From Nonomuraea indica (GTDB lineage: Bacteria; Actinomycetota; Actinomycetes; Streptosporangiales; Streptosporangiaceae), in the NCBI RefSeq assembly GCF_002850745.1, contig NZ_KZ559468.1, positions 663,119-727,118 of the forward strand: DNA of 64,000 bases, written 5' to 3'. Under the pieces are notes generated by a model that worked only from the letters and a program-made list of their open reading frames with translations, was not told the origin of the DNA and ran no database searches. The position numbers were made by a program, and so were the translations under genes. Of this stretch, positions 6,980 to 47,719 are shown piece by piece; position 1 is the stretch's first letter, and the number at the start of each line of letters is the position of its first letter.

Positions 6980-8911
6980 TCACGAGAGGGCCCTTCCGGC
7001 CATCATGGCCAGCAGCGTCATCTGGTCCAGGTCGGGCGTGGCGGCGGGGTCGAGCTCGCGGTAGCGGCGGTGCAGGTTGACCACGATCCGCTCGGAGTCC
7101 AGCCAGGTGGCGTACTCGTCCAGGTCCACCGCCTCCACCGCCTCGGCGAAGGACAGGCCGCGGGCGTGGGCGGCGTCCGCCTGCTCGACCACGTGGGCGA
7201 GATAGCCGCGCACCGCGCGGATCCCGTCCGGGTCGGTGACCGGGCCGTGGCCGGGGACGATCGTGTGCGCGCCGGTGTCGATCATCCGGTCGCAGGCGGC
7301 GATCCAGTTGCCGATCGGGCCGCTCCACACGATCGGGGTGCAGCCGACGAACAGCAGGTCCCCCGCGAAGAGCACGCCCGCGTCCGGCACGTGCACGACC
7401 GAGTCGGCGCCGGTGTGGGCGGGGCCGAGATCCATCACCCGCACCTCGCGGCCGCCGACCTCCAAGGTCAGCTCCCCCTCGAAGGTCAGGTCGGGCAGCC
7501 GCAGGCGGATGCCGCTGAAGTCGAAGGCGCCGAAGCGTTCGCGGAAGTAGGGGGTCATGGGGCCGAGGTCCACGACCTGGGTGGCGGTCAGCATCTCCGG
7601 AGGCATCTCGTGCCGCATCTCGGAGCAGGTGGCCTCCGCGGCGACGATCCGGACGTGCTCGCCCAGCAGCTGGTTGCCGTGGGTGTGGTCGCCGTTGGCG
7701 TGCGTGATGACGGCGTGGGTGAGCGGGTGCCGGTCCGTGACCGGGCGCATGGCGTCGAGCATCTCGGCGGTCAGCGGCAGGTCGAACAGGGTGTCGACCA
7801 GGAGGGAGGCCCCCTCGCCGGCGACCAGGCCCGCGTTGCTCCAGCCGTACCCGCCGTCGGGCAGCAGCCAGGCCCACACGCCCGCGCCGACCTCGTGCAG
7901 CCCGCGCGTGTAGGGCAGCTTCGCCGGGGCGCGGTTGACCCGCGGCCGCGGAGGCCGCCGGTCCGGGTCGGGCCGGGGCGGCAGCGGGTGCGGCGCGGCG
8001 GACGCGCGGACGGTCTGCCGGGTACGGCCGAGCCCCTCGACCGTCAGCTCGACGACGTCGCCGTCCCGCAGCCAGCCGGGGAAGGCGGCCGGGTCGCCGA
8101 GGGACAGGTGCTCGACGAGGCAGCAGCCGGGGACCGTGCCGGAGCCGAAGACGTCGCCGGGCATCAGGTCCACGCCGCGCGAGGCGTAGGAGATGACCTC
8201 GCCGAAGCTCCAGTCCATGGCGTCGGTACGGCCCGAGCCGATGGACCTGCCGTTGACCTTCGCCTCGACCCGCAGGGCGAGCCTGCCGTCGCGGCGGTAG
8301 GGGGCCAGCTCGTCCGGGGTGACCAGGAACGGGCCGAGCGTGGTCGCGCCGTCCTTGCCCTTGGCCTGGCCGATCGCCAGCGGCGCCTCGCGCAGCTGCA
8401 GGTCGCGGGCCGACCAGTCGTTGTAGATGGTGTAGCCGATGATGTGCTCCTCGGCCTGCTCCGGGGTGAGGTCCCGGCCGCCCGGCCCGATGACCGCGGC
8501 GATCTCCAGCTCGAAGTCGAACCAGGCGCTGCCGGGCGAGATCGTCACCTCGTCGTCCGGACCGGCGATCGTCGAGGGGCAGGCGAAGTAGTAGGCCGGG
8601 ATCTGGTACCAGGCGTCGTCGAGCGTGCGGGGGGAGCCGGTCGCCTGCCGGCAGTTGCGCATGTGGTCCAGGAAGCACAGGCAGTCGCGGACCGAGGGCG
8701 GACGGGGGATCGGCGCGCGCAGCCTGGCCCCGGCCAGCGGGACGGCCTCCGCCTCCGACGCCAGGGCCGCCTCCCCGGCCGCCCGCAACTCCGCCGCGCC
8801 CCGGCCGACGAGCTCGATCAGAGCGACGCCTGGGGCGACCGGGTGGATCCGGTCGTCGCCGATGACGCCGACGCGGTCTCCCGTACCCGTCGCGTAAGTC
8901 ACCCAACGCAT
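6980..8911 (-). CDS. fumarylacetoacetase-like / metallo-beta-lactamase-fold fusion protein
   Basis: A 643-residue protein with two enzyme domains in one uninterrupted frame. Residues about 60-305 are a fumarylacetoacetate hydrolase-family domain: metal ligands in FDFELEIAAVIG (E134, E136) and YNDWSARD (D165), the SFGEVISYASRG segment and a terminal GDVVELTVEGLG. A proline/arginine-rich linker (about 305-332) leads to an MBL-fold domain (about 335-640) with HANGDH (404-409; Asn at the second metal position instead of His), AHTGAD (H499), AGDLLF (D518) and VPGHGP (H555). The two activities usually occur as separate proteins. The ATG at 8911 has GAGGAGG upstream. Role probably in aromatic or keto-acid catabolism; substrate unknown. 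Confidence 0.85.
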   Translation of the reverse strand: MRWVTYATGTGDRVGVIGDDRIHPVAPGVALIELVGRGAAELRAAGEAALASEAEAVPLAGARLRAPIPRPPSVRDCLCFLDHMRNCRQATGSPRTLDDAWYQIPAYYFACPSTIAGPDDEVTISPGSAWFDFELEIAAVIGPGGRDLTPEQAEEHIIGYTIYNDWSARDLQLREAPLAIGQAKGKDGATTLGPFLVTPDELAPYRRDGRLALRVEAKVNGRSIGSGRTDAMDWSFGEVISYASRGVDLMPGDVFGSGTVPGCCLVEHLSLGDPAAFPGWLRDGDVVELTVEGLGRTRQTVRASAAPHPLPPRPDPDRRPPRPRVNRAPAKLPYTRGLHEVGAGVWAWLLPDGGYGWSNAGLVAGEGASLLVDTLFDLPLTAEMLDAMRPVTDRHPLTHAVITHANGDHTHGNQLLGEHVRIVAAEATCSEMRHEMPPEMLTATQVVDLGPMTPYFRERFGAFDFSGIRLRLPDLTFEGELTLEVGGREVRVMDLGPAHTGADSVVHVPDAGVLFAGDLLFVGCTPIVWSGPIGNWIAACDRMIDTGAHTIVPGHGPVTDPDGIRAVRGYLAHVVEQADAAHARGLSFAEAVEAVDLDEYATWLDSERIVVNLHRRYRELDPAATPDLDQMTLLAMMAGRALS

Positions 8912-9103
8912 GGAGAACCTCCTCGTTCTATGTTGGCCGACACAGGATATACCAGTCAGCATTCGCTCTGTCGTCCGGCAAGTCCGCAGCGGCGTGATCG
9001 ACCGAAGGACCGACCGGCGACATTTCCTCGGGGCACGTCATGCCAAGAGGGTCAGCGCGCACGAAGCCAGGCGAGGCCTCCTGCATGGCTTCGCCCTGGA
9101 AAC

Positions 9104-9440
9104 CGCGCTGCGCTGACCGGTCGTGCGGGTCGCGCGCGCCCAGGCGGCGTGGGGGAACAGGCCGACGTCCGGGGCTCCGGGCCGGAAGTCGTACCGGACG
9201 ACGGGCGGCGGGTGGCGGAGCTTCGGCCCCTCGGGTGTGGAGATCGCGTTGACGACGGTGCCCCAGCCCTGCCGGGAGGTCAGGTAGCCCTCGGCGGTGA
9301 GCTGGTGGTAGGCCGCGACGACCACATCGCGGGTGATCTGGAGATCGGAGGTGAGTGCCCGGGACGACCGTCGGCCGGAGCGACCCCGCCGTGATCGTCG
9401 ACGTACGGTACCGACCCACCTCAACGGCGAAGACCCCCAC
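9104..9440 (-). pseudogene. remnant of a MocR/PdxR-type GntR regulator
   Basis: On the minus strand, SRALTSDLQITRDVVVAAY followed by QLTAEGYLTSRQGWGTVV (about 9245-9370) is the second half of a GntR winged helix, and FRPGAPDVGLFPHAAWARA (about 9125-9185) is the start of the aminotransferase-like domain of MocR proteins. The preceding ITAGSLRP-like segment lies in another frame (about 9380-9430), so the HTH is frameshifted, and the remaining roughly 350 residues are missing. The rest of 8963-9581 holds no recognisable gene. Confidence 0.65.
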
Positions 9441-9581
9441 CCGGACAGAGCCGGGCAGCTGAGCGATGGGGAAGGTCACAGCCGACGCAGTCGTGCCGAT
9501 CGAGCGCGACCTGCCCGAGCGGCGACCGGTCAGGCAGGGCGTGACGACCGTGGGGCCGGGCGACGGCGGCGGGCCGTGCCG

Positions 9582-11045
9582 TCAGCGCGGCAGGTAGGCG
9601 GACCATCGTCCAGGACGGACGCCCTGCAGCGGCCGCCGCTCCCAGGCCAGCAGGAACGGCGCCGGAACCGCGCGGCCGCTGTCCACGGCGACCACCTGCT
9701 TCCCCGCGGCCTCGGCGGCGCGCACCGCGGCGGGCACGTCGTTCAGCCCCGCCCAGTTCAGCACGGTGTGCCCGTCGCAGCCCATCCGGTAGGCGATCAT
9801 CACCGCGTGCTCGCCGTACACCAGGCAGGGAGGGTGGACGCGTAGGTCCCGCAGTTCCCGGGCGACCCGCACGTGGGCCTCCCGCTTGGCCAGCCGGGGC
9901 GCGACGACCTTGTCCAGCGTGACGCCCTGCAGGGTGAGGTGCGCGAGGAAGCCCGCGGCGGCCAGGCAGGCGCCGGCCCGGCGCCGCGCCGTCCCCCTCG
10001 CGCCCTCCAGCAGCGCGAGCGCGCCGTGCGCGATCGGGAACGCCAGCAGCGCGTACGTGGGGAGCAGGAAGCGGGGGGCCGCGTACCCGACCAGGAAGAC
10101 GTACGGCACGGCCGACGACACGCCCGCCACGGCCGGCATGAGGGCTTCGGCGAGGCGGCCACGGTGCCGGGCCGCGTACAGCCCGAGCAGGACGAGCACC
10201 GGGATCGCGCTCCACCACAGCACCCAGGACGGCATGGCGGGGCCGCAGTGCGCGGGAGGCCGGCACAGCAGCGGGCCGTTCAGCGCCCGCGCGTGCTCGT
10301 ACAGCGAGAAGTGCAGCCCGGTCTCGTTGGCTGCGCCGGCGGCCTGCCAGCGCGCGAGCGGCCCGCCGAACCGCACGTACGCCTCGACGACCCAGTCCGC
10401 CCATCCGGCGGCGAGACCGGCGACCAGCGCGACCGCCACCCGGGGCCGTCGCCCGCCCGGCCGGACGAGCGCCAGCCCCAGCGGGAGGACGAGCCAGAGG
10501 CTGTCGGGCGGCCGCACCAGGGCGACCGCGGCCACGCACAGCGCCAGCCCGATCACGCAGCCGCGCCCGGCGTCCGGCCGCAGGCAGCGCAGGAAGAACC
10601 CGACGGCGCCCACCGCCCCGAACGCCACCCACATGTTGGGCATCGCCTCGCTGCCGTAGAACAACGCCAGCCACAGCGAGGCGAACAGCAGCGCGGCCAC
10701 GGGCGCCACGGCTCCCGGGCGCAGCCGCAGCCAGGTCGCGAACGACGCGTAGAGCGCCAGGGCCGACAGCAGGCACAGGTAGACGCGCAGCGCCTCCGTC
10801 GAGGACGTCACCAGCACCACCGGCGCGACGATCAGCGTGATCCCGCGGGCGCGAGGCGCGATGAACTCGACCGCGGGCACCCGGGGATCGACCTGGCTGA
10901 CGTAGACCACCTCGTCCCACCCCAGCCCCATGCCGGGGCCGGCCGCGACCAGCTGGACGGTTCCGTAGCAGACGGCCACGAGCGCCAGCAGGGCCCGCCA
11001 GGGGTCGGCTCGCAGCCACGAGTGCGTCGACGCGCTTGGTCTCAT
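9582..11045 (-). CDS. polytopic membrane protein, GT-C glycosyltransferase-like
   Basis: A 487-residue protein with about ten hydrophobic segments. After the first membrane segment comes GWDEVVYVSQVD, resembling the first extracytoplasmic loop DE motif of GT39-like polyprenyl-phosphate-sugar glycosyltransferases. A soluble C-terminal tail follows (about 385-487: HPPCLVYGEHAVMIAYRMGCDG, then WERRPLQG). It may transfer a sugar to a cell-wall or protein acceptor on the outer face; neither donor nor acceptor can be inferred. The first ATG at 11045 gives a plausible N-terminus. Neighbours do not form an obvious pathway with it. Confidence 0.65.
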   Translation of the reverse strand: MRPSASTHSWLRADPWRALLALVAVCYGTVQLVAAGPGMGLGWDEVVYVSQVDPRVPAVEFIAPRARGITLIVAPVVLVTSSTEALRVYLCLLSALALYASFATWLRLRPGAVAPVAALLFASLWLALFYGSEAMPNMWVAFGAVGAVGFFLRCLRPDAGRGCVIGLALCVAAVALVRPPDSLWLVLPLGLALVRPGGRRPRVAVALVAGLAAGWADWVVEAYVRFGGPLARWQAAGAANETGLHFSLYEHARALNGPLLCRPPAHCGPAMPSWVLWWSAIPVLVLLGLYAARHRGRLAEALMPAVAGVSSAVPYVFLVGYAAPRFLLPTYALLAFPIAHGALALLEGARGTARRRAGACLAAAGFLAHLTLQGVTLDKVVAPRLAKREAHVRVARELRDLRVHPPCLVYGEHAVMIAYRMGCDGHTVLNWAGLNDVPAAVRAAEAAGKQVVAVDSGRAVPAPFLLAWERRPLQGVRPGRWSAYLPR

Positions 11046-39056: not shown

Positions 39057-39131
39057 GGGCGATTAGCTCAGCGGGAGAGCGCTTCGTTCACACCGAAGAG
39101 GTCACTGGTTCGATCCCAGTATCGCCCACCA
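39057..39131 (+). tRNA. tRNA-Val (CAC)
   Basis: Acceptor GGGCGAT/ATCGCCC, D-arm TTAGCTCAGCGGGAGAGC, anticodon stem CTTCG/CGAAG with loop TTCACAC (CAC), T-loop TTCGATC, encoded CCA. Apart from the anticodon arm it differs from tRNA-Val(GAC) at 26823 in one acceptor pair and one T-loop base. Confidence 0.97.
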
Positions 39132-39254: not shown

Positions 39255-40271
39255 TCAGGGGCGGGCGGTGGAGGCTCGGGCGACCAGCGTGGGGGCCAGG
39301 CGCTCGGACTCGACAGCCTCTCCCGCGAGGAGCCGGGTCAGTGACATGAGGGCCCTGCGTCCCATCTCGCGGGTGGGCACGGTGACGCTCGTCAGCGGGA
39401 TCGGCAGCTCCGCGGCCAGGGGCGTGTCGTTGTATCCCATGATCGACAGGTCGGTGCCCACCGTCAGGCCATGGTCGCGTGCGGCGCCCATGGCGCCGAT
39501 GGCCGCGAAGTCGTTCACCGCGAAGATGGCCGTCGGCCGGTCCGGCCTCGACAGGAGCTTCTCGGCGGCGGCGCGCCCGCCGGCCGTGTCGAACGGCGAG
39601 TGCAGCACCAGCGGCGCCGCGAGGCCGCGGTCGCGGTAGTAGCCGACGAACCCGGCGGTGCGGTCGGTCCCGGTGCTGGCGTACGGCTCCCCGGCGATGA
39701 CCGCGACGTCGACGTGCCCCAGTCCGTGCAGGTGCTCGGCGGCCAGCCGCCCGCCGGTCACGTCGTCGGCCGTCACCGAGGGATGGTCGCCGGCGCGCCG
39801 GTTGACCAGGACGAACTTCCCGCCGTCCGCGGCCAGCTCGTCGAGGAAGCCGCTGTCGAGGCTGGCGTCACCGAAGATCAGCCCGTCGACCCGCCTGGCG
39901 AGCATCATCCTGGTGCGCAGTCGCCGCGTCTGCTCGTCGTCGCGGCTGTTGGCGGTGATGGTGGTGAGGCCGAGCTCGCCCGCGGCCTCGTCGATGCCCT
40001 CGTAGATCATCGCCAGCACGAGGTCGGACAACCGCGGCACGAGAACGCCCACGAGCCTGCTTCGCCCGGTCCGCAGCCCGCTCCCGTGGGGATCGGGCTG
40101 GTACCCCAGCTCCTCCGCAAGGCGGCGGATGCGCGCGGCGGTGTCACCGGACGCAGCCCGCACGCCGTCGCCGGTGCGCCCGTTGAGGACCCTGGACACC
40201 GTCGAGACATGCAGGCCGAGCTGGTCGGCGATGGACCGCAGGGTCACCTGGTGCGCCTTGGGCTGCGCCAC
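39255..40271 (-). CDS. LacI-family transcriptional regulator
   Basis: A 338-residue repressor: HTH VTLRSIADQLGLHVSTVSRVLNG (about 9-31), hinge with GYQPDPHGSGLRTGRS, and a periplasmic-binding-protein-like sensor domain (VGVLVPRLSDLVLAMIYEGIDEAA to TSVTVPTREMGRRALMSL). GTG start. It is divergent from the nitrilase/amidase operon, with two tandem CAAACGTTTG operators between them, so it represses that operon and relieves it on binding a small molecule, perhaps the substrate or a sugar-like part of it. Confidence 0.9.
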   Translation of the reverse strand: MAQPKAHQVTLRSIADQLGLHVSTVSRVLNGRTGDGVRAASGDTAARIRRLAEELGYQPDPHGSGLRTGRSRLVGVLVPRLSDLVLAMIYEGIDEAAGELGLTTITANSRDDEQTRRLRTRMMLARRVDGLIFGDASLDSGFLDELAADGGKFVLVNRRAGDHPSVTADDVTGGRLAAEHLHGLGHVDVAVIAGEPYASTGTDRTAGFVGYYRDRGLAAPLVLHSPFDTAGGRAAAEKLLSRPDRPTAIFAVNDFAAIGAMGAARDHGLTVGTDLSIMGYNDTPLAAELPIPLTSVTVPTREMGRRALMSLTRLLAGEAVESERLAPTLVARASTARP

Positions 40272-40351
40272 GAACGCCTCGCTTTCCGCGGATGGGCCGG
40301 CTCCTACGGTACGACCTCTTGACGTCGTCCCGATACGGCGTCCATGCTATC

Positions 40352-40375
40352 CCAAACGTTTGGCCCAAACGTTTG
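40352..40375. promoter_or_regulatory. two tandem LacI operators
   Basis: Palindromes CCAAACGTTTGG (40352-40363) and CAAACGTTTG (40366-40375), centres 13 bp apart, lie 20 bases upstream of the nitrilase ATG. The central CpG palindrome is typical of LacI/GalR sites. Close spacing would place two dimers on neighbouring turns. Confidence 0.88.
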
Positions 40376-40395
40376 CGCAACACAAGGAGCGTGAC

Positions 40396-41295
40396 ATGAC
40401 CGACGCAGAGAACCATCCGGTCAGCCCGGCACGGGTCGCGGTGATCCAGTTCGACCCCCAGGTCGGCCTGGACAACCGCGCCGCCAACACCGATCGGGCG
40501 CTCGCGCTCGCCGAACGCGCGGCCGACGACGGCGCGACGCTGATCGTCCTGCCTGAACTGTCGGCCACGGGCTACAGCTTCCGCGACCGCGCCGAGGCGT
40601 ACGCGCACGCCGAGGAGGTCCCGGACGGGGCGACGGTGCGCACCTGGGAGTCCTTCGCCCGCGAGCGCGGCGTGCACGTCGTCACCGGCCTGGCCGAGCG
40701 TGAGGGCGTCCGCCTCTTCGACACCGCCGTCCTCGTCGGCCCCGACGGGTACGTGGGCCGCTACCGCAAGACCCACCTGTGGAACCGGGAGAAGCTCTGG
40801 TTCACCCCTGGCGACCTCGGCTTCCCGGTCTTCGACACCCCGATCGGCCGCATCGGCCTGCTCATCTGCTGGGACATCTGGTTCCCCGAGGTGCCGAGGC
40901 TCCTGGCCCAGCAGGGCGCGGACATCATCTGCAGCGTCAACAACTGGGTGTGGACCCCTCCGCCGATCTTCGACGAGACCGGCAGGTGCATGGCCTCGTA
41001 CCTGACCATGACCGCCGCCCACGTCAACAACGTGTTCATCGCCGCCGCCAACCGCGTCGGCACGGACCGGGGCGCCCGTTTCCTCGGTTGCTCGCTCATC
41101 GCCGGGACCAACGGCTGGCCCATCGGCCGGGTGGCGGGCGCGGAGGAGGAGACCATCCTGACGGCCGACATCGACGTCGTCTCCGCGCGCAGCGCACCGA
41201 TATGGAACCAGCTCAACGACCTGATCCGCGACCGGCGCACCGACCTGTACGACCCGTTGCTCGGCTACGGGCTGGGCCACGTGGCGCCGCGCTGA
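40396..41295 (+). CDS. carbon-nitrogen hydrolase (nitrilase superfamily)
   Basis: A 299-residue enzyme with the Glu-Lys-Cys triad: E54 (LPELSATGY), K125 (YRKTHLW) and C158 (LLICWDIWFPEV). The superfamily includes nitrilases, amidases and carbamoylases; the subfamily cannot be fixed by eye, but CWD...FPE favours an amidase or carbamoylase. The ATG has AAGGAG upstream. First gene of a LacI-controlled operon with a membrane protein, an amidase-signature enzyme and a MetX-like hydrolase. It may remove one amide, urea or nitrile group in a stepwise breakdown. Confidence 0.88.
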   Translation: MTDAENHPVSPARVAVIQFDPQVGLDNRAANTDRALALAERAADDGATLIVLPELSATGYSFRDRAEAYAHAEEVPDGATVRTWESFARERGVHVVTGLAEREGVRLFDTAVLVGPDGYVGRYRKTHLWNREKLWFTPGDLGFPVFDTPIGRIGLLICWDIWFPEVPRLLAQQGADIICSVNNWVWTPPPIFDETGRCMASYLTMTAAHVNNVFIAAANRVGTDRGARFLGCSLIAGTNGWPIGRVAGAEEETILTADIDVVSARSAPIWNQLNDLIRDRRTDLYDPLLGYGLGHVAPR

Positions 41296-42476
41296 TGACG
41301 ACCGTCAACGCACCGGCCCGCACCGGCGTGCGACGCCTTGTCGCCGCGGTCCTGGTCGTCACCCTGACCGCGCTTCTGGCGATGTGGCTGACGGCCATCC
41401 GTCCCACGCTGCCGGCGATCGTGCCCGGCTACGCCTCCTGGGGCCTGGGGTATACGGACCCGACCTGGTACGCGTACTGGATCATCGGCGACACCACCGA
41501 GGCCACGCTGGCCAAGTCCGCGCTCGGCGGGCTGCTGATGATCGCGGGGGCCTGGCTGGCGCACACCGCCCGCCGCCGCGGGAAGCGCTGGCAGGGCTTC
41601 GCCCTGGCGTGCGGCACCGGCGTGCTGTGGCCGTGGGTGCTGGCCGCCGCGGGACTGGGAGTCCTGGCGAGCAACCTGCTGTGGGGCTGGACGCTCGACG
41701 GCTGGCAGCCCACGTTCGCCCCGATGGTGTCGGTCCCGCCCGCTCTCGTGATCCTGTACGGCCCCGGCTGGCGCGTGGCGGCGACCGGCGCGGCGCTCGG
41801 CGCGGCGCTCATCACGCCGCTCGCCCTGGTGCTCGTCAACCTGGTGTGCACGCCCCTCGGCATGTCGCCCGTGGTCGGCAGCACGCTGGCCATGTCCGTC
41901 GGCGGGTTCGGGGCCTTCCTGCTCTGCCGGAGGCTGCCCTGGATGCCGCCGCTGCGTACGTCACCCCCGGCGTCGCCGGAGGCGGCGCCCGTCCGGTACG
42001 GAGCGTCCTGGGTGCCGCGCCGCATCCTGGCCGATTTCACCGAGGCGCACTTCTTCGGCAACGAGTGGGCGGGAGCGGCGCTGCTGTTGGGGTGCGTCCT
42101 GCACTACCTGCTCAACCCGGCCGCACCGGCCTACGGCACCGGCCTGCTCCCGCACCTGATCGCGGCGCAGGTCCTGACGGCGGCCTGCGGGCTGCTGCTG
42201 TGGAGCGGGCGGTGGGAAGCCGGCGGCTGGTACCCCACCTTCGTCCCCATCGTGTCCGTGACGCCGGCCACGGTGCTGGCCTTCGGCGGCACCCTGCACT
42301 CGATCGTGGCCGGAGCCGTGCTGGGCGCCGCCGTGGCCCCTCCACTCGCCGCGGCGCTCGCCCGGCGGTTGCCGAACGACGTCCATCCCATGGTCGCCTA
42401 CACGGCCTCCATGGCCGTGTGCACCGCGACCCTCATCCCCGTCCTCGACCTGCTTCCCGGCTTCCACCGGGCCTGA
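41295..42476 (+). CDS. duplicated polytopic membrane protein, probable transporter
   Basis: A 393-residue protein with about ten TM segments in two related halves. WGWTLDGWQPTFAPMVSVPPALVILYG...GAALGAALITPLA (about 133-185) matches WSGRWEAGGWYPTFVPIVSVTPATVLAFGG...GAVLGAAVAPPLA (about 295-350). This internal repeat suggests an inverted- or direct-repeat transporter fold. No known family was recognised. The ATG overlaps the nitrilase stop (TGATG), so it is in the operon and is probably the importer of the substrate. Confidence 0.75.
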   Translation: MTTVNAPARTGVRRLVAAVLVVTLTALLAMWLTAIRPTLPAIVPGYASWGLGYTDPTWYAYWIIGDTTEATLAKSALGGLLMIAGAWLAHTARRRGKRWQGFALACGTGVLWPWVLAAAGLGVLASNLLWGWTLDGWQPTFAPMVSVPPALVILYGPGWRVAATGAALGAALITPLALVLVNLVCTPLGMSPVVGSTLAMSVGGFGAFLLCRRLPWMPPLRTSPPASPEAAPVRYGASWVPRRILADFTEAHFFGNEWAGAALLLGCVLHYLLNPAAPAYGTGLLPHLIAAQVLTAACGLLLWSGRWEAGGWYPTFVPIVSVTPATVLAFGGTLHSIVAGAVLGAAVAPPLAAALARRLPNDVHPMVAYTASMAVCTATLIPVLDLLPGFHRA

Positions 42477-42504
42477 CCAGCCGACCATGACAAGAAGGGA
42501 ACTC

Positions 42505-43914
42505 ATGTCGACGGCCAGCGGCTCCGGCCGCGCACCCGAAGGGCACTTCGCCGGCCGTACGCTCGCCGAACTCGCCCGGGACCTGCGAGCCGGGAGCACC
42601 ACGTCGGTGGAGCTCACCCGGCACGCCCTCGACGCCATCGCCCGGCTCGACCCCCGGCTCAACGCGTTCATCACCGTGGACGCCGACGGCGCGATGGCCG
42701 CCGCCCGGCAGGCCGACGCCGAGCTGGCCCGCGGCGTCGACCGGGGTCCGCTGCACGGCGTGCCCGCCGGGGTCAAGGACGTCATCATGGTCAGGGGCCT
42801 GCCCGCGACCATGGGCTCGCGGCACTTCGCCGGCCACGTTCCCGACGCCGACGCGGCCTGCGTGACGCTTCTCCGCCAGGCGGGAGGCGTCATCGTCGGC
42901 AAGACCAACACCCACGAGTTCGCCTACGGCCCGACCGGCGACCGCTCGGCCGCCGGCCCGTCGCTCAACCCCAGGGACACCTCCCGCATGCCGGGGGGAT
43001 CCAGCAGCGGCAGCGCGGTCGCCGTCGCGGCGGGCATGGTCCCGCTCGCGCTCGGCACCGACACCGGCGGCTCGGTCCGCATCCCGGCGGCGCTGTGCGG
43101 CGTCAGCGGCTTCAAGCCGTCCTACGGGGCACTCGCGGCGGACGGCGTCTTCCCCCTGTCCAAGACCCTCGACCACGTGGGGGTGCTGGCCGGCGACGCC
43201 CAGAGCTGCCTGGTCGCCTACCGGTCGCTCCTGGCCGGCGGCAGCCCGCCGCCGGCCGTCCCGGCCGAGGCCGGACAGCACCCCTCCGAGCAGCCCGACG
43301 CCCGGCCACGCGTCGGCTGGCTGGACCCGGCCGCCCTCTTCGCCTGCGATCCGCGGGTGGTCCACGCCGCCCGCCAGGCGATCGGGGCCGGGACCGGGTC
43401 CGTGGCGGAGCGCCGGCTGTCACCGCAGGACGCCGACGACCTCCGCCAGGCCTTCGTGGCGATCCAGAGCCACGAGGTCATCGAGGTGCACGCCGGGCGC
43501 ATGGCGGACGATCCCGGCCTGTTCGACGCCGAGGTGCTCGGGCGGCTGCGCGCCGCCGCGACCGTCCCGGCCCGGAGGTACGCCCCCGCGATGCGGACCC
43601 GGACCCGGCTGATCGCGGCGATCGGCGGGCTGTTCGGCCATGACGACGTGCTGGCCACGCCGACCGTTCCCATCACCGCGCCGCTCCTCGGCCGGCGGGA
43701 GCTGGACCTCGACGGCACGCGCGTCGCCGTACGAGACGCGCTGCTCTCACTGACCAGCCCGTGGAACGTGCTCGGCCTGCCCGCGCTGAGCATCCCCGCC
43801 GGGACGGTGGACGGCCTGCCCGTCGGGCTCCAGCTCATCTGCCGGCCCGGTGACGAGCACCTGCTCTTCCGGGCCGCGGCACTCTGTACACCAAGGGAGA
43901 AAGCACATGCATGA
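42505..43914 (+). CDS. amidase-signature family hydrolase
   Basis: A 469-residue AS-family amidase with the Ser-cisSer-Lys triad: K91 (GVPAGVKDVI), the Gly/Ser loop GGSSSGSAVAVAAG (about 164-177) and S190 (GTDTGGSVRIPAALCGVSGFKPS). It is of the GatA-like/Asp-aryl amide type, but no GatB or GatC is near, so it is catabolic rather than tRNA-linked. The ATG at 42505 has AAGAAGGGA upstream and is preferred over 42487. Its last 8 bases overlap the start of the MetX-like gene. Confidence 0.9.
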   Translation: MSTASGSGRAPEGHFAGRTLAELARDLRAGSTTSVELTRHALDAIARLDPRLNAFITVDADGAMAAARQADAELARGVDRGPLHGVPAGVKDVIMVRGLPATMGSRHFAGHVPDADAACVTLLRQAGGVIVGKTNTHEFAYGPTGDRSAAGPSLNPRDTSRMPGGSSSGSAVAVAAGMVPLALGTDTGGSVRIPAALCGVSGFKPSYGALAADGVFPLSKTLDHVGVLAGDAQSCLVAYRSLLAGGSPPPAVPAEAGQHPSEQPDARPRVGWLDPAALFACDPRVVHAARQAIGAGTGSVAERRLSPQDADDLRQAFVAIQSHEVIEVHAGRMADDPGLFDAEVLGRLRAAATVPARRYAPAMRTRTRLIAAIGGLFGHDDVLATPTVPITAPLLGRRELDLDGTRVAVRDALLSLTSPWNVLGLPALSIPAGTVDGLPVGLQLICRPGDEHLLFRAAALCTPREKAHA

Positions 43915-44968
43915 CATCTACGAACTGCCGGGCTTCCGGCTCGACAGCGGCGCCGTCCTCGACCCGGCCAGGCTCGCGTACCGGACCTACGGTGAGCTGA
44001 ACGCGACCCGGACGAACGCCGTGCTCTTCCCCACGTGGTTCGCCGGGGACCACACCTCCAACGAGTGGCTCATCGGCCCGGGCAAGGCACTCGACCCCCG
44101 CGAGCACTTCGTCATCGTGCCCAACCTGTTCGGCAACGGCCTGTCCTCCTCGCCCTCCAACACCCCGGCGCCCCATGACGCCGCCGGCTTCCCGGCGATC
44201 ACGATTCGCGACAACGTCAGGGCGCAGCACCGGCTGGTCACCGAGCACCTCGGCGTCGAGCGGCTGAAGCTCGTCCTCGGCTGCTCCATGGGAGCGCTGC
44301 AGACCTACCAGTGGGCGGTCAGCCATCCGGACATGGTCGAGCGGGCCCTGCCGTTCTGCGGGGCTCCGCGGACGTCGCCGCACAACGCGGTCTTCATCGA
44401 GAGCCTGCGGGCGGCCCTCACCCTGGACGCCGCCTTCGAGGGCGGACGCTACCGGACACCGCCGCTGGCGGGCATCAGGGCGTTCGCCCGCGTCTACGCC
44501 GGGTGGGGGTTCTCGCAGCCCTTCTACTGGGAGGAGGAGTACCGGCGGCTCGGGTTCGCGTCACGGGAGGAGTTCGTGAGGGGGTTCTGGGAGGCCAACT
44601 TCATCGGCCAGGACGCCAACAACCTCCTCGCGATGCTCGGCACCTGGCAGGACGCCGACGTCTCGGCCACGCCGGGCCTGGACGGCGACATCGAACGAGC
44701 CCTGGGCTCCATCACGGCCAGGGTCGTCGCCCTTCCCGCGGAGAGGGACCTGTACTTCCCTCCGGAGGACGAGGTCCGTGCCGCCCGGCACATCCCGCAC
44801 GGCGAGGTCCGCGTGATCCCGGGAATCTGGGGCCACATGGCGGGCAGCGGAGCCAACCCCGAGGACGCCGCCTTCATCGACGCGGCCGTCAGGGACCTGC
44901 TCTCCGCCCCCGTACCCGCCGCCGGGCCGGCCGCCGAAAGGCGCGCCGAAACGCCCGCCCGTCTGTGA
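43907..44968 (+). CDS. MetX-like alpha/beta hydrolase
   Basis: A 353-residue homoserine-acetyltransferase-family protein: triad S127 (GCSMGALQTYQWA), D281 (ERDLYFPPED) and H310 (GIWGHMAGSG). YRTYGELN...NAVLFPTWFAGDH and LFGNGLSSSPSNT match family landmarks. True MetX usually has GGSMG; here GCSMG, and the setting is catabolic, so hydrolase activity (ester or acyl transfer of the breakdown product) is more likely than methionine synthesis. AAGGGAG precedes the ATG at 43907. Last gene of the LacI-controlled operon. Confidence 0.85.
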   Translation: MHDIYELPGFRLDSGAVLDPARLAYRTYGELNATRTNAVLFPTWFAGDHTSNEWLIGPGKALDPREHFVIVPNLFGNGLSSSPSNTPAPHDAAGFPAITIRDNVRAQHRLVTEHLGVERLKLVLGCSMGALQTYQWAVSHPDMVERALPFCGAPRTSPHNAVFIESLRAALTLDAAFEGGRYRTPPLAGIRAFARVYAGWGFSQPFYWEEEYRRLGFASREEFVRGFWEANFIGQDANNLLAMLGTWQDADVSATPGLDGDIERALGSITARVVALPAERDLYFPPEDEVRAARHIPHGEVRVIPGIWGHMAGSGANPEDAAFIDAAVRDLLSAPVPAAGPAAERRAETPARL

Positions 44969-45982: not shown

Positions 45983-47719
45983 TCAGGCGGCCGGGGGTCC
46001 CGCGGGTGAGCCCAGGGCGCGGCACAGGGCCGCCGCGACCTCGGGAGGCGACGGCCGGTGCAGCACCGCCGCGACGTGCGCGTCCGGCCGGACGACCCAC
46101 AGCTCGCCCGGCCGCGCCGCCAGGGCCCGCGTGAGCGTCCCGGCGGCGTCGACGTCACCGAGGCGCAGCAGCCGGACCGGCGCCCGCGTGGCCCGCCGCG
46201 CCGCGTCCAGCGCGGCGGCGGCGCCGTCGACGCCGCCGGCCGCCAGCAGCAGGAACCCGTCCCTGGCCACCTCGCGCAGCCGCGCCACCCGCTCGCCCGC
46301 CACGCGGATCGGCGCGTCGGGCACGATCACGCCGGGGGCGGCCGGCGGCACGGAGCCGCGAGGCGGCCGCCCGGCGAACGGCCGCGACGGGTCCGGCGTC
46401 GTCAGCGGCGAGTCCACGTACCAGAACGGCTCGGCGAGCCGGCCCGAGTCGACGGCGGCCCGCGCCGCCGGGTCGGTGGCCGCCGTCTCCAGCGCGGCCA
46501 GCCGGAACCGGCGCTCCGCCTCGGTGCCCGGCACCAGGAACCGCATCGTCGCCGCGGTCACGTCGAGGTTCTCCAGGGCGGCGGCGTGCCGCTCGGTGTG
46601 GTAGCTGTCGAGCAGTTCCTCGCCCGCCCAGCCGTTCAGCGTGAAGGCGAGCTTCCAGGCGGCGTTCTCCGCGTCCTGCACCCCGGAGTTCAGCCCCCGC
46701 GCGCCGAACGGCGCGACGAGGTGCGCCACGTCGCCGGCGAGCAGCACCCGGCCGGTCCGCATGCGGTCCACCACCCGGGAGTGGAAGCGGTAGACCGAGC
46801 TCCACACCACCTCGTACGGGCGGTCGCCGATGACGGCGCGGATCCGCGCGTCCCGCGCCCCCGAGGAGAGCTCCCGGTCCTCGTCATAGCCGGGCGGCAC
46901 CTGCCAGTCCACGCGGTACGTCGAGCCGGGGCACGGGTGGATCAGCACCTGACGGCCGGGGTTCCACGGCGGGTCGAAGTAGAAGCGCCGCTCGCGGGCC
47001 CACCCCGGAAGGTCGGCACGGATGTCGCAGATGAGGAACCGGTCGTCGAAGGAGCGCCCGGCGAAGCGCAGGCCGAGCAGCCCGCGCAGCCGCTCCGCCT
47101 TCGCCCCCGCGCAGACCAGCGCGTACGCGGCCCGTACGCGCACCCGCCCGGCGGCGGTCAGGCAGGTCAGCGTCACCCCGGCCGGGTCCTGGGCGAGGCC
47201 GGTCACCAGGTGGTCCCAGCGCGCCTCGATCAACGGCTCGGCGGCGATGCGCTCGTCGAGGAGCCGCTCGGTGCGCGACTGGGAGATGTTGACGAACGGC
47301 GGGAACGCCGACCGGCCAGCCTCGGCGAAGGTGAGGCTGAACAGCTCCCGGTCCCGGTGGAAGGTGCGGGCCGTCGTCCAGGTCAGCCCTTCGGCGGCGA
47401 TGCGCCGGCCCACGCCGGCCGCCTCCCAGACGTCCAGCACGTCGCGCTGCTGCACGATCGACCTGGAACCGGCCGCCTCCCGGCGCGGCCGCCCGTCCAG
47501 CAGCAGCGTGGGCACGCCCCAGCGGGCCAGCAGCAGCGCCGCCGTCTGCCCCACCGGCCCGTTGCCGACCACCGCGACCGGCACCTCCACGACCGGCACC
47601 TCCACGACCGGCACCCCCGCGACGGACGGCACTGGCCCGGGTGTCACCGGCTCGGGTGTCACCGGCTCGGGTGTCACCGGCTCGGGTGTCACCGGCTCGG
47701 GTGTCACCGGCTCAGTCAT
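45983..47719 (-). CDS. FAD-dependent aromatic monooxygenase with repeated N-terminal tail
   Basis: A 578-residue PheA/MhpA-type hydroxylase. After a 45-residue tail of five T-P-E-P-V units and two V-V-E-V-P units comes AVVGNGPVGQTAALLLARWG (FAD Rossmann), later GDVAHLVAPFGARGLNSGVQDAENAAWKLA (second FAD motif) and a thioredoxin-like C-terminal domain (about 480-578). The tail is encoded by 15-bp tandem repeats and is probably not part of the enzyme fold; a start nearer PVAVVGNGP could be the ancestral one. Downstream of, and co-directional with, an MBL hydrolase (6-base gap), suggesting one catabolic operon. Confidence 0.85.
   Translation of the reverse strand: MTEPVTPEPVTPEPVTPEPVTPEPVTPGPVPSVAGVPVVEVPVVEVPVAVVGNGPVGQTAALLLARWGVPTLLLDGRPRREAAGSRSIVQQRDVLDVWEAAGVGRRIAAEGLTWTTARTFHRDRELFSLTFAEAGRSAFPPFVNISQSRTERLLDERIAAEPLIEARWDHLVTGLAQDPAGVTLTCLTAAGRVRVRAAYALVCAGAKAERLRGLLGLRFAGRSFDDRFLICDIRADLPGWARERRFYFDPPWNPGRQVLIHPCPGSTYRVDWQVPPGYDEDRELSSGARDARIRAVIGDRPYEVVWSSVYRFHSRVVDRMRTGRVLLAGDVAHLVAPFGARGLNSGVQDAENAAWKLAFTLNGWAGEELLDSYHTERHAAALENLDVTAATMRFLVPGTEAERRFRLAALETAATDPAARAAVDSGRLAEPFWYVDSPLTTPDPSRPFAGRPPRGSVPPAAPGVIVPDAPIRVAGERVARLREVARDGFLLLAAGGVDGAAAALDAARRATRAPVRLLRLGDVDAAGTLTRALAARPGELWVVRPDAHVAAVLHRPSPPEVAAALCRALGSPAGPPAA
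47641..47715. repeat. 15-bp in-frame tandem repeat, 5 copies
   Basis: Five units of GTGTCACCGGCTCGG (last with one change) encode the T-P-E-P-V repeats at the monooxygenase N-terminus. A second 15-bp duplication at about 47576-47608 encodes V-V-E-V-P. Confidence 0.93.

Follow-up and report, generated by a model that had tools for sequence, protein, structure and literature searches.

A predicted LacI-regulated amide-scavenging operon of Nonomuraea indica with a candidate importer from a nameless membrane protein family

A stretch of 64,000 nt from Nonomuraea indica (assembly GCF_002850745.1, NZ_KZ559468.1, positions 663,119-727,118 of the forward strand; hereafter the window) carries a LacI-family repressor gene that faces four hydrolase and membrane protein genes on the other strand. 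These encode a nitrilase-superfamily C-N hydrolase (Nit), a polytopic membrane protein (Mem), an amidase-signature hydrolase (Ami) and a MetX-like alpha/beta hydrolase (Table 1). The genes are closely packed: the start of Mem at 41295 overlaps the stop of Nit, the gap between Mem and Ami is 10 bp, and Ami and the MetX-like gene overlap by 8 bp. A preliminary description of this DNA had read it as a tight operon facing a divergent LacI gene, and this layout holds for every gene. With an amide-hydrolase gene, a membrane protein suited to transport and a specific regulator in one predicted operon, the locus would be of the kind known from the ami and fmd amidase operons.

Table 1. Features of the predicted operon and its control region, in window coordinates.
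Feature	Position	Strand	Remarks
LacI-family repressor gene	39255-40271	-	338 aa; divergent from operon
Candidate promoter TTGACG-18 bp-CATGCT	40319-40348	+	by eye; weak
Operator 1, CAAACGTTTG	40353-40362		contained in the 12-mer CCAAACGTTTGG, 40352-40363
Operator 2, CAAACGTTTG	40366-40375		13 bp downstream of operator 1
Nit, nitrilase-superfamily C-N hydrolase, probable amidase	40396-41295	+	299 aa; CN_hydrolase 7e-55
Mem, polytopic membrane protein of a nameless family, predicted amide/urea importer	41295-42476	+	393 aa
Mem repeat 1	41457-41942	+	residues ~55-216; hhalign, half against half
Mem repeat 2	42000-42461	+	residues ~236-389; inverted relative to repeat 1 by charge
Ami, amidase-signature hydrolase	42487-43914	+	475 aa; Amidase 1.1e-96
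MetX-like alpha/beta hydrolase, not a MetX equivalog	43907-44968	+	353 aa; PRK07581

Mem had no meaningful match in Pfam, NCBIfam or the PDB sequences (best Pfam E 0.24, chance level). Its halves are homologous, as hhalign aligned them over 154 columns at 34% identity with a probability of 99.8% (E 4.3e-29), which bears out the earlier view of a two-half membrane protein. From hydropathy and charge averaged over 94 sequences of the family, with helix borders placed by eye, the topology is best read as one N-terminal helix followed by two sets of five, with the halves inverted. The numbers of Lys plus Arg were 2.6 in the a-b loop of half 1 and 0.0 in that of half 2, and 0.1 and 2.7, respectively, in the b-c loop, and it is because of these opposite charges that we consider the halves inverted. 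Such an internal inverted repeat of membrane helices is expected of secondary transporters and channels, and the predicted 1+5+5 arrangement would suit a transporter or channel. Both halves open with acidic residues (D66 and E69; D247, E250 and E257) that are at least 90% conserved in 31 rows and are candidates for binding of the substrate or of protons.

Known transporters offer partial parallels. UT urea transporters (PF03253) are built of two repeated halves and have a urea context in common with Mem, while AmiS/UreI proteins (PF02293) share a small-amide context, and one is encoded close to Mem on a Rhodococcus and on a Prescottella plasmid. Two relationships were considered and rejected: a duplicated AmiS/UreI channel, suggested by a likeness of motifs, had a profile probability of 0.2-0.4% (7 AmiS rows), and a relative of the UT transporters one of at most 8% (25 UT rows). 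ThrE (PF06738) also has two repeated membrane halves (96.6%); its profile matched Mem with a probability of at most 15.8% over 54 columns (17 ThrE rows), and 8 of 31 Mem members gave weak ThrE matches in Pfam (best E 0.0038).

The neighbours of Mem were labelled by script for 92 distinct Mem genes at 90 loci (loci and genomes carry our L and G numbers). Nit lies directly upstream on the same strand, less than 150 bp away, in 74 of the 92. The preliminary description was to fall if Mem and the hydrolases did not co-occur in other genomes; an amide, urea or amidohydrolase gene was found within 400 bp of Mem in 86 of the 92. The order Nit-Mem-asparaginase occurs at 43/92 loci, Nit with an asparaginase homologue at 45/92 and Nit alone at 23/92; the GGT, G(T/S)DT and Lys motifs of the asparaginase homologues are kept in ten rows. 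Most of the Pseudomonas loci have Nit-Mem, asparaginase and a flavin amine oxidase being present at some and absent from others. Other arrangements are LacI-asparaginase-Nit-Mem (L002), amidase-Mem (L003-L005), amidase and amidohydrolase genes beside Mem (L044-L046), and AHyd3 alone (L048, L135-L138); in the count over the 92 Mem genes, AHyd3 is the sole partner label at 4 loci. At L047, Mem is followed 59 bp on by UreA-UreB-UreC-UreE-UreF genes, and this Mem is a candidate urea permease. In the same 2.1-Mb genome (L047:4724-10187), a D-Ala-D-Ala ligase gene precedes Mem, with ureABC, ureE and ureF behind.

Some Pseudomonas also carry Mem apart from Nit (L017:198-1388; L152:5967-7148; L021, L023 and L024 near 8866-10074). 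In the last three, Mem adjoins a conserved divergent protein of 203-208 aa; the L023 copy had no Pfam or NCBIfam match.

Mem appears to have been exchanged with ABC importers on two occasions. Variovorax paradoxus (L210) has a four-gene ABC importer followed by Nit-amidase-tautomerase, whereas Phyllobacterium (L001) has Nit-Mem-amidase-tautomerase; the amidases of the two are 57% and the tautomerases 70% identical, and Mem was not found in the L210 stretch. In a tree of 32 chosen Nit rows, the clade of Variovorax Nit (97/96 support) also takes in three Nit accompanied by Mem (Phyllobacterium, L042, L043) and one Streptomyces plasmid copy beside which no Mem was found. On a Streptomyces plasmid (L211), Nit (64%) lies without Mem amid transposases and a Doc-type gene. 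The second exchange is seen in three Pseudomonas genomes with a Nit of 49-51% (G698, G702, G826), where all three loci read Nit-ABC importer-asparaginase against the Nit-Mem-asparaginase of 43 Mem loci, with binding proteins 61-63% identical to that of L214. Plasmid relatives of Nit were sampled as 11 loci from the 66 records below 60% and as all five records at 60-80%. At the 11 loci, with Nit at 47-53%, an ABC importer lies directly downstream in seven (L213, L214, L215, L218, L220, L222, L223), followed by urease genes in L213, L218, L222 and L223. The L210 binding protein scores best against urea-binding proteins (348 bits, cut-off 494.8), and all those scanned (L210, L213, L214, L215) were urea-type by best score with none above cut-off; at the other plasmid loci the type of importer was judged by annotation.

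Like Mem, these urea/amide-type importers (UrtA-like, TIGR03669/TIGR03407) have Nit, amidase, asparaginase or urease genes as neighbours. In contrast, Mem is one protein without a binding protein or ATPase, and the two are set apart by gene content, not by profiles. Because of the exchanges and the urease operon of L047, import of amide or urea-like compounds would be the simplest function for Mem. The probable importer of the preliminary description thereby gains indirect support, import itself being what we infer. We consider it an even bet that Mem represents a new transporter family without kinship to UT, AmiS/UreI or any Pfam or NCBIfam family, whose members take up amides and urea-like compounds and have been swapped time and again for multi-gene ABC importers in actinobacteria and proteobacteria.

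Relatives of Mem were found at 20 loci in GTDB contigs and in six plasmid records, in all five annotated ones of which the protein is called hypothetical. Mem occurs in 6 of 396 genomes of the phylum, including its own (two of eight matches, G012 and G301, at L033 and L034, were dropped as chance local matches of ~65 aligned residues, E ~2e-4), and in 5 of 98 relatives, again including its own, all five from the same genus. It was also found in 7/197 genomes of the order of G380, in 3/39 of the family of G065 and in 66/199 Pseudomonas genomes (68 before G667 and G681, E ~7e-4, were dropped). Counted as raw genomes with kinship ignored, the 199 Pseudomonas comprise 65 with Mem and Nit, one with Mem alone, five with Nit alone and 128 with neither, where Nit means at least 65% identity (70 matches) and the matches at 49-51% are kept separate. 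A partial Nit ORF of 59% is visible in the genome with Mem alone (G812). Loci were taken from 57 of the 66 Mem-bearing genomes, leaving out G691, G700, G725, G798, G810, G811, G823, G827 and G832. In G691, G700 and G811 the Mem copy is split in two or has an internal stop, which suggests decay.

The families that the preliminary description assigned to the other four proteins were upheld by Pfam and NCBIfam scans. Nit has a CN_hydrolase domain (186.6 bits) with E54, K125, E132 and C158 at the expected catalytic positions, roles that we take from the nitrilase superfamily; its Glu-Lys-Cys set thus stands, and conservation over 80 aligned rows is among the highest around the cysteine. Ami has an Amidase domain (325 bits), with K97 and the nucleophile S196 at the expected catalytic positions. 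From the usual spacing in the amidase signature family we take S172 to be the cis-Ser, and the Ser-cisSer-Lys reading agrees with the motifs present. Its closest PDB entries are 2dc0, a probable amidase, and then the biuret hydrolase 6c62. The best NCBIfam model of Ami was AtzE-like and scored under its cut-off (323.6 bits against 461), as did the second (315.7 against 425.75), so that Ami is not assigned to AtzE. The MetX-like protein has an Abhydrolase_1 domain (43.1 bits) and belongs to PRK07581 (489.9 bits, cut-off 332), a family with presumably an ester-hydrolase role. It is not a MetX: MetX_acetyl scored 148.2 bits against a cut-off of 500. The closest PDB entries, 5e4y and 5d6o, are both deposited as homoserine O-acetyltransferase. 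S127, D281 and H310 occupy the expected positions of what we assume to be its catalytic residues.

The LacI protein combines the Pfam domains LacI (29.2 bits) and Peripla_BP_3 (110 bits), both above cut-off; no NCBIfam equivalog reached its cut-off, the best being RbsR-like. Its relatives stand at 84-87% in L007, L008 and L041 and at 56-58% in Paenarthrobacter L002 and Pseudomonas L009. The two tandem operators described earlier were confirmed: the only exact copies of CAAACGTTTG in the whole window lie 13 bp apart in the LacI-Nit gap. When one mismatch was permitted, shuffled sequences averaged 0.19 matches over 100 rounds, 3 of which reached two matches. The 12-mer CCAAACGTTTGG is present once in the 8,287,624-base genome, at the Nit promoter. 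A scan by script of 79 Nit ORFs, apart from the window gap, found sites in 5 rows (one of them L040, a second copy of L007). Tandem pairs also stand ahead of Nit, 13 bp apart as in the window, in Nonomuraea zeae (L007), Microtetraspora sp. (L008) and the same-genus L041; in Pseudomonas sp. Irchel s3h17 (L009) the spacing is 32 bp. In Paenarthrobacter L002, two related CAAACGATTG sites lie beside the LacI gene, ahead of the asparaginase gene. DNA-binding and ligand domains together with palindromic operators at a divergent promoter point to a repressor of the neighbouring operon. Since the 12-mer is single in the genome and tandem pairs stand before Nit, a predicted regulon of one operon fits. 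The candidate promoter is kept in the window, L007, L008 and L041; it is graded weak because a consensus scan reported no promoter there.

We propose, with a probability of about 0.62, that the locus is a substrate-induced operon that scavenges nitrogen from an external amide, with Mem as the importer. Without inducer, LacI would occupy both operators, immediately past the promoter, and block the operon, until it binds the amide or a product and expression follows. Mem, with its predicted inverted halves, would bring in an amide-like substrate, of which Nit would convert the amide group into acid and ammonia. Ami may hydrolyse a second or related amide, and the MetX-like enzyme may remove an ester in a lineage-specific side branch. 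Possibly, carbon as well as nitrogen is gained. Import, substrate class, repression and the order of steps are all what we infer from the sequences.

Several observations weigh against this reading. For five of the 92 Mem genes, no hydrolase was recognised up to 6.5 kb away (L006, L023, L124 and the second copy in each of L017 and L152, that of L017 at the edge of its stretch). The labels asparaginase, AHyd1, AHyd3, urease and Ami18 were seeded from Mem loci, and therefore the partner count apart from Nit and Ami is partly circular. The Nit relatives of the second exchange (49-51%) are not orthologues, and four of the 11 distant Nit loci (L216, L217, L219, L221) lack such an ABC importer downstream. 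An ABC importer was expected beside Nit in the five Nit-only Pseudomonas genomes, where neither it nor Mem was recognised, and neither was found at the Streptomyces and Embleya plasmid copies. Mem has no significant similarity to the AmiS/UreI, UT or ThrE profiles, all at or below 15.8% probability. Moreover, ammonia is a common product of nitrilases, amidases, asparaginases and urease, by established family chemistry, and at many Pseudomonas loci a flavin enzyme could form the amide intracellularly, which is as compatible with amino-acid import or product export as with import of an amide.

The gene for this flavin amine oxidase is found upstream, in the same orientation, at 48 of the 74 Nit-Mem loci. 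Two or three such ORFs precede Nit-Mem in L115, L116, L117, L123, L130, L140 and L145, which could be duplications or broken genes, and no plasmid relative was found at E 1e-30. The closest PDB chain is the tryptophan 2-monooxygenase 4iv9 (131.6 bits). An amide-forming reaction is plausible, because Arg98, Lys365 and Trp466 of 4iv9 (numbers hand-counted from the alignment), presumably its catalytic residues, align with residues invariant in ten rows. In auxin synthesis by IaaM and IaaH, tryptophan 2-monooxygenase makes an amide and an amide hydrolase gives the acid; a similar enzyme stands beside Nit in many Pseudomonas, and none at the window locus. The Pseudomonas module might thus be a decarboxylating amino-acid pathway, in which Mem imports the amino acid, the flavin enzyme turns it into an amide and Nit into an acid, while the actinomycete operon is a shortened version taking ready-made amide. 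We hold this tentatively, at somewhat under even odds: the similarity to 4iv9 is modest and does not predict the substrate. No flavin gene was seen within 6.5 kb of Mem in the window, L007, L008, L041-L043, L009 or L002, and therefore such a pathway does not explain the window directly. It is unlikely that Mem instead exports a common product, either ammonia/ammonium or the carboxylic acid released by the hydrolases. An enzyme that makes the amide would render its import unnecessary in many Pseudomonas loci; yet the ABC systems for which Mem is swapped, beside the same hydrolases, have a substrate-binding protein and are importers.

The preliminary description had three hydrolases strip amide, nitrile or acyl groups in sequence from one substrate. 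Among the tabulated loci, all five genes LacI-Nit-Mem-Ami-MetX-like occur together only in the window (with L049 as its second copy), L007 and L041, which would suit genes acting in turn on a compound with an amide, a second amide and an ester. However, L008 has LacI-Nit-Mem-MetX-like without Ami, and the MetX-like label is confined to the window, L007, L008 and L041; it is missing from L009 (LacI-Nit-Mem-Ami) and from L042 and L043, which like L001 have Nit-Mem-Ami. With Nit-Mem constant and its partner hydrolases varying by lineage, we think the one-substrate sequence improbable and do not retain it. Breakdown of nitriles by a true nitrilase seems, if anything, slightly more improbable still. 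Nit does have a nitrilase as its best NCBIfam model, and its best PDB chain, 3ivz, is deposited as nitrilase / beta-ureidopropionase. However, its 217.9 bits fall far under the model cut-off of 500, the partners of its relatives are amidase, asparaginase and urease genes, and the CWD motif at the cysteine is presumably of the amidase type. Nothing positive thus remains for the removal of nitrile groups beyond a model name. The nitrilases treated in the accessible part of PMC8567248 differ from Nit.

Two features lie outside the operon. A tRNA-Val (CAC) at window 39057-39131 is ~120 bp past the 3' end of the LacI gene, and an FAD-monooxygenase-like ORF at 45983-47719 (minus strand) has repeated EPVTP units at its N-terminus, as read by eye.

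Amidase operons of the forms amiC-amiR-amiE-ABC and fmdA/amiE-urtABCDE are known, and in the accessible part of PMC13209695 the authors think that the transporter brings in the amide. As far as that part describes these operons, they have an amide hydrolase, a regulator, a candidate transporter and nitrogen scavenging in common with the window, which differs in its single duplicated membrane protein, its LacI-type regulator and the added Ami and MetX-like genes. The earlier statement that no described pathway has this combination stands in part: none was found in the open-licence literature, in searches not all aimed at the exact combination, but operons of amidase, importer and regulator are known (part of PMC13209695). 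The new part of this otherwise known kind of amide-scavenging operon is Mem, an undescribed candidate importer.

Hence, the interest lies in the membrane protein rather than in the number of hydrolases. About a third of the sampled Pseudomonas species carry Mem. If it is an amide or urea importer, it would supply the uptake step that many nitrogen-scavenging operons lack, and a membrane protein whose fold may be new would become a tractable target. The exchanges between Mem and ABC importer genes point to a specific and cheap test of this function.

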